Shown here one piece after another: positions 38,739 through 47,552 of a stretch of DNA of 64,000 nt. Numbering within the stretch: the first letter of the stretch is position 1; each line of letters begins with the position of its first letter. Origin of the DNA: Pyrobaculum oguniense TE7 (lineage in GTDB: Archaea; Thermoproteota; Thermoprotei; Thermoproteales; Thermoproteaceae); assembly GCA_000247545.1 (NCBI GenBank), contig CP003316.1:2079233-2143232 (forward strand). Reading direction: 5' to 3'. Under the pieces are notes generated by a model, which saw only the letters and a program-made list of their open reading frames with translations, searched no databases and had not been told where the DNA came from. A program made the position numbers and the translations under genes.

Positions 38739-40187
38739 CTATCTACCGTAAATAGACGCGATAAAACTCACAAGATCTGCCACGGTGGGTCTTTTGGCCG
38801 GATCCAGATCTAGCATTTTGAGAATTATCTCATCCATCCATGGGGGGACGTCCGCCGCGTAGGCGCTTGGCGGCGGAATAGCGTATCCGTTCTCTACAAA
38901 AACGTTAGGGTTTATGCCCGTCAATGCTTCATAGATTACGCAACCCAGCGAGTATATATCCGAGGAAAAGGAGGCCTCCCCATTCTTGACCTCAGGCGCC
39001 GCATATGCAGGCGACATGAAGCTACTCTGGACGCGTCCCCCTATTGCAACCTTCGCGATGCCCATGTCGCCTATCTTCGCAACTTTCCTGTCTTTCGTAA
39101 AAAGTATGTTTTCAGGCTTGATATCTAGGTGGATAATATTACGGCGATGTATGTCGTACAGGCCCTGCGCCAATTGTCTAAACAGCTCAGCCACGTAGCC
39201 CGCCGGTAGCCTCTTCTTAGCTCTCAGCAAATCTCTCAAGGTCCCTCCATCCATGTACTCCAGCAGTATATACGGCGGATTCCTCATATACTGACCTATG
39301 TCCTTGTATCCAACAGCCGGCAGATACACCTCGTAGGCCCTCACTACGTGATACGATTTCAGCTCCAAGTACCTGTTCATCTCCTGGCCAAAAAGATACA
39401 AGATATTCTCGTCCCCAGCCAAGGGCGCTCCCTGGTCGTCAGCAAAACGGAGAATTTTAACAGCATACATGGACTTCTTGAACTTTACTAACAGTACATA
39501 GCTGAAGCCGCCCACACCCAGCAATCGGATTACCTTATACCTACCGCCTAGCCACGAATATAGCCATCCAATAGGCGGATTTACTGACAGGTATAAGACT
39601 CTCTTATACGTGGCAATATACGAAAGTATGAGTACTAGAGGTGGCAGGAAACTTAGATACTGGCCCAAGGCGGTGAGATAGTAGAAGTTTACAACGGCAA
39701 CTAGAGCTACGAGCACAAACGATACGTCGATAAGGGCGGCTAGAGTACCAGCCAACACAGACACCGGTGTGAATTCAGGATACACAAATGCAGAAGTTAG
39801 GACAAGAATTGGCATAAGTCTTTCAATTTTTAAAGGCTTGAATCTATATAAATAAATTATTAAAATTGAAAAGACTATAAAGATTCCATCAATAAAATAG
39901 TAAATATATACTAACTTTTCATTTATATAGTACTCTGTCAATATAACCATTTTCATTATAGTTAATATTATAAAGATTAGTAAAATTTGATCTCTATACC
40001 TATCATAAACCGCTCTAAGTAGTATTAGGGCTATCAACGTCGTGTTTAGTGCGACAATAACACCCGTAGAATAGAGCAACAGGATGAAGCTGATGATGCC
40101 CCACACAATCGCCACTATATGTCGATATAGAAACCAGCCCGCCACAGCCAAAACCACCGCGAAGACCGCTACTAGGTAATCGGCCAC
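38739..40187 (-). CDS. Membrane-bound Ser/Thr protein kinase
   Basis: A protein of about 482 residues. The first 195 residues are strongly hydrophobic, probably six to eight membrane helices. The C-terminal kinase domain has a glycine loop (GVGGFSYVLLVK), catalytic Lys (YAVKILRF), an HLDIKPENILF catalytic loop and an MG-type metal loop (IGDMGIAK, DFG changed to DMG). The activation segment ends with SPAYAAPEV. The longest frame starts at 40382 and overlaps moaA; the GTG at 40187 has TTATAACC about 26 nt upstream. It is paired with the FHA gene downstream as a likely kinase and phospho-reader system. Confidence 0.82.
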   Translation of the reverse strand: MADYLVAVFAVVLAVAGWFLYRHIVAIVWGIISFILLLYSTGVIVALNTTLIALILLRAVYDRYRDQILLIFIILTIMKMVILTEYYINEKLVYIYYFIDGIFIVFSILIIYLYRFKPLKIERLMPILVLTSAFVYPEFTPVSVLAGTLAALIDVSFVLVALVAVVNFYYLTALGQYLSFLPPLVLILSYIATYKRVLYLSVNPPIGWLYSWLGGRYKVIRLLGVGGFSYVLLVKFKKSMYAVKILRFADDQGAPLAGDENILYLFGQEMNRYLELKSYHVVRAYEVYLPAVGYKDIGQYMRNPPYILLEYMDGGTLRDLLRAKKRLPAGYVAELFRQLAQGLYDIHRRNIIHLDIKPENILFTKDRKVAKIGDMGIAKVAIGGRVQSSFMSPAYAAPEVKNGEASFSSDIYSLGCVIYEALTGINPNVFVENGYAIPPPSAYAADVPPWMDEIILKMLDLDPAKRPTVADLVSFIASIYGR

Positions 40188-40271
40188 ATGGTGCATATGC
40201 TCGGTGGTTATAAGTATACGTATACTACACGTAAACCGATAACATATTAATCTACCAAATCGTCTAGGTAT

Positions 40272-41204
40272 GTGCTTTTTGATAGATATGGGCGGCCTTT
40301 CCAGAAACTCAGGTACGTCGTTAACGATGAGTGTAACTATAACTGCGTGTTTTGCCATTTTGAGGGCCAGTTGAGGCGCCAAGGGAGTTATTTAACAGCA
40401 GAGGATTACGGCTTCGTATCTTCATTTTTTAGGTCTCTAGGAGTAGCCGACTTCAAGATAACTGGGGGAGAACCCCTGCTGAGACGCGACATTGACCTGA
40501 TAGTTGCCAATGTGGCCAAGACGGGGGCGTACGTCACAGTGACAACCAACGGCTACCTACTGAGAGGGTGGGTGGACAAGCTACGCAAGGCGGGCGTGGC
40601 GAGGCTAAACGTGTCGGTACACACCACAGATCCTGAAAAATACGCCAAGATAACCAACACATCGCCTGCTGTTTTTAGAGAGGTCATGCGGGGCCTAGCC
40701 GAGGCTAGAGACAGAGGACTCTCATTGAAGCTCAACGTAGTGGTGTTAAGAGATATCAATACAGATAGGCAGAGCGTGAAGGAGTTGGTAAAACTGGCGG
40801 CCCGCTTAGGCGCATCGCTTCAGTTTATCGAGCTTATGCCCACAGGGTCAGGTACTAAGATATTTGACAACTTATTCGAGCCCATAGAGTCTATTGTAGA
40901 GATTGTAACGCAGCTAGGGGGGAGGCCTATCGGTGTGCGGAAAGAGCTTCACAATAGGCCTCTGTACTTAGTAGGCGGAGTCGTGGTGGAGTTAATAAAG
41001 AATTTCAACAATTCCCACTTCTGCGCCGGGTGTACTACCATGAGACTCACAAGCGATGGTAAGCTGAAAACATGTATATACGCCGACGACGCGGTGGACT
41101 TGTTACCGTATATAAAATCACGCGACGTCGAGGGCCTTCTATATTCCGTACGCCTAGCGCTGGCAAAGAGACAGCCGAAATTTAAGTTCTACTCCTCGTC
41201 GTAG
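40272..41204 (+). CDS. moaA: GTP 3',8-cyclase MoaA (radical SAM)
   Basis: A 310-aa enzyme that performs the first step of molybdopterin synthesis, converting GTP to 3',8-cyclo-GTP. The radical SAM cluster motif is CNYNCVFCH (CxxxCxxC). The C-terminal second Fe-S cluster ligands are in CAGCTTMRLT and LKTCIY. The SAM-binding GGEPLLRRD is also present. The GTG at 40272 has ATATTAAT about 28 nt upstream. The end overlaps the ModE-like regulator by 16 bp (convergent), a linkage that suits molybdenum or tungsten cofactor control. Confidence 0.95.
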   Translation: MLFDRYGRPFQKLRYVVNDECNYNCVFCHFEGQLRRQGSYLTAEDYGFVSSFFRSLGVADFKITGGEPLLRRDIDLIVANVAKTGAYVTVTTNGYLLRGWVDKLRKAGVARLNVSVHTTDPEKYAKITNTSPAVFREVMRGLAEARDRGLSLKLNVVVLRDINTDRQSVKELVKLAARLGASLQFIELMPTGSGTKIFDNLFEPIESIVEIVTQLGGRPIGVRKELHNRPLYLVGGVVVELIKNFNNSHFCAGCTTMRLTSDGKLKTCIYADDAVDLLPYIKSRDVEGLLYSVRLALAKRQPKFKFYSSS

Positions 41205-41602
41205 TAGGGAATCTCCTCCTCACCTCTGCTCTGTCTCGTTGCGGCGTATTGCTCGATATTTGATAAAAACTCGTTAAATCGGCCCTCCCAAATCTTTGTA
41301 ATACCCTCTACCTCTTTGCTCATATCCTCGTAGTATTTTAGCAACAGCTTACCAACTTCGGTGAGCTCAGACACTCCCCGCTCTTTGCCGCCTCTCCTGG
41401 ATTCAACCAGCGGCACGCCTAAGGTATCTTCAAGCTTTTTTATGTAAGTCCATATAAACTTGTAAGAATATCCAAGCTTTCTTGCAGCAGATGCTATCGA
41501 GCCCGTCTCCTCTAAGGCTTTGAGAATATTGTAGATGCCTGGCCCTATTATTTCTTGGCCATCCTTATCGACCCAGATGCGTATCTTCACCTTAATAACC
41601 AC
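41189..41602 (-). CDS. ModE-like transcriptional regulator
   Basis: A 137-aa protein with the N-terminal winged helix of ModE (ILKALEETGSIASAARKLGYSYKFIWTYIKKLEDTLGVPLVE, read in order at residues 27-68), the DNA-binding domain of molybdate-responsive regulators. The C-terminal molybdate-binding (TOBE) domain is missing; a charged helix replaces it. It may be a DNA-binding-only homologue that senses through another partner. GTG 41602 has TTTTAATT about 25 nt upstream. It is convergent with moaA. Confidence 0.85.
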   Translation of the reverse strand: MVIKVKIRIWVDKDGQEIIGPGIYNILKALEETGSIASAARKLGYSYKFIWTYIKKLEDTLGVPLVESRRGGKERGVSELTEVGKLLLKYYEDMSKEVEGITKIWEGRFNEFLSNIEQYAATRQSRGEEEIPYYDEE

Positions 41603-46494: not shown

Positions 46495-46824
46495 GTGTCT
46501 TGTCCCCGGTGCGGTTCACGCGAGGTCATGCTGACGCCTGTCGGCGAGTATGTGTGTAAGAAGTGTGGTCACAGATGGGCTATGCCCTCTGTTGACTACA
46601 CGTGGATAGAGCTTGATGTTAAAAAGGCGAAACTTTTTGAGAAGTATATAGACTCGCCTATAGAAAGTTGTGAAGAGTTGCTCTCACTCCTACTCAAGGA
46701 GCTTGACGAGGAGAGCGCCAGGTACCTGGCTGCTAAGATTCTGCTACAGAGGGCTGAGAGACGGAGGATGACCCCAGCTGAGTTGAAAAAGCTATACGAC
46801 AACGCCGAAAGTTGTTTTAAATGA
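46495..46824 (+). CDS. Small zinc-ribbon protein with helical C-terminus
   Basis: A 109-aa protein beginning with a zinc ribbon ([10 protein letters not shown], then [10 protein letters not shown]), followed by a helical region rich in Glu, Leu and Lys (residues 35-105). The ribbon resembles transcription or translation factor ribbons, but I cannot name the family. The GTG at 46495 has CTTTTAAT about 27 nt upstream. The stop overlaps the start of the MoaC-like gene (ATGA), implying coupled expression. Confidence 0.7.
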
Positions 46825-47552
46825 TCGTAGACGTATCAAAAAAACCAGACATCATAAGGTACGCCAGGGCTTCAGCCGGCGCCGAGGTTGAAAAATGCAA
46901 CACGGCGGCGGCTGTGAGGGCCGCTTTAAACGCCGGCAGGTACTTACCTTTTCTGCACCCGCTCCCTCTAAGGGCCTCGGCGTGGTGTGAAAACGGGAGG
47001 ATGTACGTAGAGGGGTTCACCGAATGGCAGACCGGCGTGGAGATGGACGTGCTTTTCGGCGCGCTGGTAGGGCTAGTCGGGTCCGGCGCGAGGAAAATAA
47101 CAAAGCTAGTAGTCGAGTCTAAGCTTAAACATGTAGCGCCAGCTCTAACCCGCGCGGAGCTCGTGGAGCTACCTCTGGCAAGACAGGGCGACCTTGTGGC
47201 ATCTGCCTACGGCAAGATGGTGCTTATAAACAAGAACTTGGTCACGAACGGCGTCGAGAAGGGCCACCCACTATACGCGGCGCAGACGGCGGCAGCACTC
47301 AACGTAAAGAGGTTTTGCGAAATAGTAGGTGGGCCATGCCCCACAGTGCAGCACTTCAAAATCGATATAGAGGTGTCGGACCACGTAGAGGTTAGGACGC
47401 TTGTAAAAACCCGGGACATCGCGCCGGCGCCTGAGGCAATGTTTGCCGCCGGCGTAGCGCTATTAACGATTTGGGATATGTTGAAGAAATATGAGAAAAA
47501 CGAAGAGGGGCAGTACCCCAATACCTACATAGAGGTTCTATTTGTGGAATAG
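46821..47552 (+). CDS. Tandem MoaC-like protein with split active-site residues
   Basis: A 243-aa protein containing two MoaC-like units. Residues 1-92: VDVSKKPD start, LPFLHPLPL (MoaC IPLCHPL, with His 46) and TGVEMDVL (Glu 74), but the KG motif and the C-terminal D-M-x-K end are missing. Residues 125-235: [13 protein letters not shown] (Lys 147), NVKRF (Lys 163), and [13 protein letters not shown] (Asp 219, Lys 222), but the His and TGVEM elements are lost (GGPCPTV, APAPEAM). MoaC forms its active site at a dimer interface (cyclic pyranopterin synthesis), so the halves could complement each other. Length is about 1.5 times MoaC. It is coupled to the zinc-ribbon gene. Confidence 0.75.

Follow-up and report, generated by a model that had tools for sequence, protein, structure and literature searches.

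A 243-residue protein of Pyrobaculum oguniense TE7 is very probably the cell's cyclic pyranopterin monophosphate (cPMP) synthase, MoaC, in the form of a covalent pseudo-dimer in which two fused MoaC halves supply one composite active site per chain; its activity is predicted. The gene lies in a stretch of 64,000 nucleotides (assembly GCA_000247545.1, contig CP003316.1, positions 2,079,233 to 2,143,232 of the forward strand), which is referred to here as the window and to which all coordinates refer (Table 1). Both the N-terminal half (N half) and the C-terminal half (C half) are MoaC-like by sequence, each retains one side of the MoaC active site, and the same split recurs in 36 full-length proteins of the Thermoproteia. 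Residues of the tandem are given below in one-letter code and those of Escherichia coli MoaC in three-letter code, unless another protein is named.

Division of the active site between the two halves

The division was tabulated by aligning 36 complete tandems and then the separate halves together with 23 ordinary MoaC proteins. All 36 tandems share, without variation, residues D4, K8, R13, L45, H46, P47, T71, G72, E74, M75, D76, L78, V98, K101 and K103 in the N half and G131, K147, G148, K163, W218, D219, K222, E225, K226, G230, Y232 and P233 in the C half. At positions where ordinary MoaC is at least 90% conserved, the residue is kept (again in at least 90% of sequences) in the N halves only in 11 cases and in the C halves only in 15. 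The full set of site residues, Lys51, His77, Glu112, Asp128 and Lys131, is present only as a composite of H46 and E74 with K147, D219 and K222. The mirror site lacks the equivalents of Lys51 and Asp128 (in the N halves) and of Glu112 (in the C halves) in 36/36, and the His is absent from 21 of the 36 C halves. The Glu motif takes the form TG(V/I)EMD in every N half, with D76 in place of the canonical Glu (E98 of the canonical reference) throughout. The chain is therefore not a single-domain subunit with two equal sites but two unequal domains.

It has been reported that MoaC is a hexamer, that its ligand is contacted by Lys62, Asp137 and Lys140 from chain A and by His88 from chain B, and that Lys78 of MoaC2 joins dimers round the threefold axis (PMC3602415). 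In the tandem the C half holds the published chain A set and the N half the chain B set, so that one of the two dimer sites would be complete and its mirror dead. The first-pass annotation had described a first half with the HPLPL His and the TGVEMD Glu but without the KG and D-M-x-K elements, and a second half with EKGHPL, NVKRF and TIWDMLKK but without the His and the TGVEM Glu. Both descriptions were borne out, the relevant residues being H46 and T71-G72-V73-E74-M75-D76 in the one half and E146-K147-G148, K163 and W218-D219-M220-L221-K222 in the other. Its suggestion that one chain could provide one composite site gains from the invariance of the complementary loss in the 36 tandems and from the agreement of the partition with the published contacts.

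A scheme for the origin and action of the protein can be proposed on this basis. The ordinary symmetric dimer would have two identical sites, each made of Lys51, Asp128 and Lys131 of one subunit and His77 of the other, with Glu112 and Glu114 presumably on the His77 side. Duplication and in-frame fusion of an ordinary moaC gene, probably on one occasion only, would have taken place in an ancestor of these Thermoproteia. In the resulting chain the N half would be reduced to the His/Glu side and the C half to the Lys/Asp/Lys side. This would leave a single composite site per chain to turn the MoaA product 3',8-cyclo-7,8-dihydro-GTP (3',8-cH2GTP) into cPMP, and its mirror would be dead. We infer both this catalytic activity and the intrachain position of the site. 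The pseudo-dimers may form a trimer, with three sites instead of six; the invariance of K163 in the C halves only suggests a threefold contact of the hexamer type.

MoaC identity and predicted structure

The 243-residue protein scores 63.6 bits against the Pfam MoaC family PF01967, for which the cut-off is 27, and matches it over two stretches at E<=1; NCBIfam PRK12343 is likewise matched twice, and all 36 tandems match PF01967. The Pyrobaculum N half taken alone gives a weak match to a canonical MoaC hidden Markov model (HMM), with an E value of 0.003. A profile built from 11 N halves aligns to canonical MoaC with an hhalign probability of 98.7% and to the sequences of solved MoaC structures with an E value of about 1e-6, and the N halves of relatives in family f3 match the canonical HMM with E values down to 1e-35. 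Since the N-half profile and the f3 N halves match canonical MoaC, both halves can be taken as MoaC by sequence, the C half plainly so. The initial view that both halves are related to MoaC thus stands, on the two PF01967 stretches, the double PRK12343 match and the hhalign result.

AlphaFold2, run with a 36-row alignment, gave a model of the whole chain with two four-stranded halves, a mean predicted local distance difference test (pLDDT) of 95.7 and a predicted template modelling score (pTM) of 0.94; for an f3 relative the values were 89.1 and 0.91. Because the whole-chain pTM is high, the halves appear to be confidently placed relative to each other. The best Foldseek match was S. tokodaii MoaC (2ohd, chain 2ohd_B; E 7.5e-10, template modelling score 0.81 by target length, 124 columns), and the pLDDT together with the Foldseek matches to MoaC chains identify the predicted fold as that of MoaC. 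About 22 residues link the two halves, the strands of the N half ending at residue 103 and those of the C half beginning from residue 126. A fold in which the halves failed to pack like a MoaC dimer had been named in the first-pass annotation as evidence against its reading, and the confident single unit and the Foldseek matches bear on this point indirectly.

Sole MoaC and cofactor context

The genome comprises 2,452,920 bases in two contigs and is 99.55% complete. An ordinary moaC elsewhere in it had been named at the outset as evidence that would tell against a composite site. A PF01967 search of the genome found a single place, which is the tandem gene at 46821-47552, and no second, ordinary MoaC. 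The molybdenum or tungsten cofactor setting proposed earlier was also upheld, with a MoaA gene and a ModE-like regulator 5.2-5.6 kb upstream of the tandem gene (MoaA at 5.6 kb). Nine matches to the molybdopterin oxidoreductase family PF00384 and five to the MoCF domain PF00994 were found in the genome and, since these occur together with MoaA, the cofactor is evidently both made and used. MoaA was found in 39 of 42 tandem-bearing genomes, including every one that is more than 90% complete. The MoaA match and the tandem match are separated by 15 bases in G053, a genome of family f7, by about 0.5 kb in the six genomes of genus g2 and by about 1.1 kb in genus g3.

Two neighbouring open reading frames (ORFs) of the window may be mentioned. 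An ORF of 109 residues with a TFIIB-type zinc ribbon occupies 46495-46824 and overlaps the start of the tandem gene by four bases, its stop codon lying across the start codon of the latter (ATGA). The order zinc-ribbon ORF, tandem MoaC, glyA is the same in all ten Pyrobaculum (g1) loci examined and was not found in the available flanks of g2, g3 and f3. Beside the MoaA gene, on the opposite strand, lies a large ORF (38739-40382) that overlaps it if read from its first start codon; inspection by eye suggests membrane segments and a domain resembling eukaryotic-type Ser/Thr protein kinases.

Table 1. Positions in the window of the tandem MoaC gene, its conserved elements and the cofactor-related genes upstream
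Feature	Position	Strand	Remarks
Tandem MoaC gene	46821..47552	+	Open frame, ATG start, 243 codons; 243 residues and stop
N half, residues 1-107	46821..47141	+	MoaC-like; without KG loop and without D-M-x-x-K end of helix 3; His/Glu side of site retained
K8 to R13	46842..46859	+	Conserved K and R of canonical first strand region; in 36/36 N halves, gone from nearly all C halves
H46-P47	46956..46961	+	Equivalent of E. coli His77 (His88 of Mycobacterium tuberculosis MoaC2); in 36/36 N halves
T71-G-V-E74-M-D76	47031..47048	+	Canonical TGVEME (E. coli Glu112/Glu114); E74 in 36/36 N halves, 0/36 C halves
V98-x-x-K101-x-K103	47112..47129	+	Canonical C-terminal V-x-x-K-x-K; in all N halves (36/36), K101 counterpart absent from C halves (0/36)
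C half, residues 108-243	47142..47549	+	MoaC domain; Lys/Asp/Lys side retained; HP loop and TGVEM lost
K147-G148	47259..47264	+	Equivalent of E. coli Lys51; in 36/36 C halves, Lys in 0/36 N halves
K163	47307..47309	+	Conserved helix-2 lysine (Lys78 in MoaC2); in 36/36 C halves, 21/36 N halves
W218-D219-M-L-K222	47472..47486	+	Equivalents of E. coli Asp128/Lys131; D and K in 36/36 C halves, D in 0/36 N halves
E225-K226...G230-Q-Y232-P233	47493..47519	+	Canonical element, kept in C half
MoaA (GTP 3',8-cyclase, preceding pathway step)	40272..41204	+	PRK00164, 249 bits (cut-off 231)
ModE-type helix-turn-helix DNA-binding protein	41189..41602	-	TIGR00637, 78 bits, below curated cut-off of 98.5

Distribution and origin of the tandem

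A search of the order matched the protein over nearly its full length in its own genus, in g2 and in g3. Identity to the 243-residue protein over the full length is 57-72% within the genus, 44-48% in g2, 33-34% in g3 and 28-38% elsewhere. In most of family f3 the two MoaC domains are better preserved and share one frame of about 330 codons. A MoaC search across the class showed that nearly every other family has an ordinary single MoaC, genome G001 of the tandem's own order being one example, and turned up one further tandem, in G053. Among the matches listed for 398 Thermoproteota genomes, full-length tandems occur only in families f1 and f3 and in G053; the remaining listed matches cover the later part of the profile only and lie mostly in frames of 146-250 codons. 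A contig scan on P0001 gave two relatives, one of which is a canonical MoaC. A tree of the halves places the N halves in one clade (100/99) and the C halves in another (91/73), with broadly mirrored inner branching. Because there are two clades of halves with mirrored branching, the duplication and in-frame fusion of MoaC probably happened once, as far as the sequences tell. Several independent fusions within the Thermoproteia were considered and rejected as the tree fits one origin, although the support for the C clade is modest and branches are long. G053 has long branches in both clades, and its tandem may have come by vertical descent or by transfer.

The state of the mirror site differs between the two families. 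The 17 sequences of f1 have lost the KG loop and the DM-x-K end of the N half by deletion; in the C half, TGVEM and the HP loop have been remodelled or deleted. Family f3 includes genera g5, g7 and g8, which we take to be Vulcanisaeta/Caldivirga-like archaea, and in these the mirror site has been neutralised identically in 15/15 sequences: Lys51 is replaced by Leu in GLGN, Asp128 by Asn and Glu112 by Ala in TGSAME. In the same 15 sequences the K8 equivalent is Glu and the R13 equivalent Gly, while the equivalents of His77, Lys131 and Glu114 are still there. GLGN in the N half, like the His and TGSAME in the C half, does not vary among these 15 sequences (L030:892-1860 and 14 further loci). Judged by sequence, an intermediate stage, with the mirror site present but neutralised (f3), and a late stage, with it deleted (f1), are both extant. 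The conservation of the mirror site in f3 suggests a retained pocket. That this vacated site has been kept as a non-catalytic pocket with a new role, for example in ligand sensing or MoaA docking, much as the forskolin pocket arose in adenylyl cyclases, is a tentative reading that we consider rather unlikely. Two genomes of f3 genus g6 (G007 and G008) have MoaA and no MoaC match; their assemblies are 87-88% complete and the tandems of g6 are the most diverged, so that the gene may have been missed.

Interrupted tandem frames were seen in four genomes. In the complete 1.84-Mb genome G041, of the tandem's own family, the tandem is split over two frames (L079, G041:C1:1660500-1663500). The N part reads to ...DIIK and the C part resumes in the -1 frame at ATT ATA AAG CAG GCC; no ATG, GTG or TTG was found in the second frame upstream of the catalytic EKG, and no other MoaC was found in this complete genome. 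A sequencing error, a real deletion and a -1 slip at A-AAG are candidate explanations of the split. The other three interruptions are in draft assemblies (L075 of G012, L071 of G021 and L074 of G016), and in G012 the extra glycine codons or G bases resemble sequence errors.

Weighing the composite site

Several points weigh against a working composite site within one chain. The protein falls short of the cut-offs of the NCBIfam MoaC equivalogs (57.2 against 141.5 for TIGR00581 and 87.9 against 171 for NF008999). The dimer-like packing of the halves is so far a deduction from the predicted model, and the side of the site to which Glu112/Glu114, K8, R13 and K101 belong is likewise presumptive. 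If there was one origin, counting alone gives an appreciable chance (1/4 for Lys, Asp and Glu) that a few universal losses would all have landed on the same mirror site. The case for the composite site has its weight because the kept site is invariant across sequences down to 28% identity.

The same site could be formed between two chains, by the N half of one and the C half of another. Conservation alone cannot separate intrachain from interchain pairing and MoaC is hexameric (PMC3602415), but the single-chain models reach pTM values of 0.94 and 0.91 without a second chain and the link between the halves (103 to 126) is about 22 residues long; we regard pairing between chains as improbable. 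Still less probable is that MoaC chemistry has been abandoned for another function, with cPMP made by an unrelated enzyme. Strong divergence and the scores below the equivalog cut-offs could be read in this way; against it, the 36 proteins never vary at the known ligand-contact residues, the tandem is the sole MoaC of a genome that also encodes MoaA and molybdopterin enzymes, and MoaA lies close by in several relatives. It is scarcely credible that the N half is merely a structural or docking domain and that the C halves pair as the catalytic dimer. The C half does far outscore the N half on MoaC models, yet a dimer of C halves would be without the Glu112 equivalent in 36/36 and without the His in 21/36, and every N half retains H, E, K8, R13 and K101.

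An artefact, in which a frameshift or the annotation has joined two adjacent moaC genes, can be ruled out for this clade by the conserved open tandem frame. A survey of archaeal gene fusions and fissions does state, in the passages available, that MoaC self-fusions could stem from frameshifts in syntenic blocks (PMC11237513). Against such an origin here, complete genomes from several genera carry the tandem as one open frame, without stops, with short linkers and with losses that match, and the frame breaks that were observed are opposite in direction, separating the halves in single assemblies (G041, G012 and G021). The intrachain composite site remains the explanation that we favour.

Comparison with known systems

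The self-fusion of MoaC is itself already known. The archaeal survey reports MoaC fused to itself as cluster 625.1, with a frameshift offered as a possible origin in the passages available (PMC11237513). That cluster probably includes the tandems treated here. The Thermoproteia tandem differs from the self-fusions as surveyed in that it fits a single origin and shows complementary loss of the site, the latter not appearing in the available passages of the survey (PMC11237513). No description of complementary site loss in MoaC was found in the literature searched, from which subscription papers were mostly out of reach, and relative to that literature this feature is apparently new. Our findings argue against dismissing MoaC self-fusions in archaeal surveys as frameshifts.

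Fusion of a MoaC domain is also seen in the MoaC-MoaB and MoaC-MobA proteins (NCBIfam PRK03604 and PRK14500). In these the partner is another enzyme of the pathway and the MoaC domain is complete, unlike in the tandem. Two loci of family f4 (L044 and L046, in G045 and G046) have frames of 304-311 codons in which a complete MoaC domain is followed by an apparent MoaB/MogA-type domain, and they look like MoaC-MoaB fusions.

With ordinary MoaC (PF01967; E. coli 1ekr/4pyd, S. tokodaii 2ohd, Thermus thermophilus 3jqm) the tandem shares the fold and, over its two halves, the full set of site residues, and it likewise occurs with MoaA and molybdopterin enzymes as the sole member of the family in its genome. 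The ordinary homodimer has two sites whereas the tandem pseudo-dimer would have one, with complementary deletions and substitutions. The tandem can therefore be seen as a natural dissection of the MoaC site, in which the conserved residues have been sorted by evolution into two sides. This sorting predicts which residues, K8, R13 and the C-terminal K-x-K among them, cooperate across the interface, and site mutants can be made in one half alone, unlike in homodimeric MoaC.

Symmetric homodimers have also given rise to tandem pseudo-dimers with one composite site in the C1/C2 domains of mammalian transmembrane adenylyl cyclase and in the pepsin-type aspartic proteases, and in adenylyl cyclase the lost mirror site has become the forskolin pocket. 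The likeness to these two systems would be one of evolutionary logic only, the folds and the chemistry being unrelated, and the MoaC tandem offers a clean example of the passage from a symmetric homodimer to a one-site pseudo-dimer.
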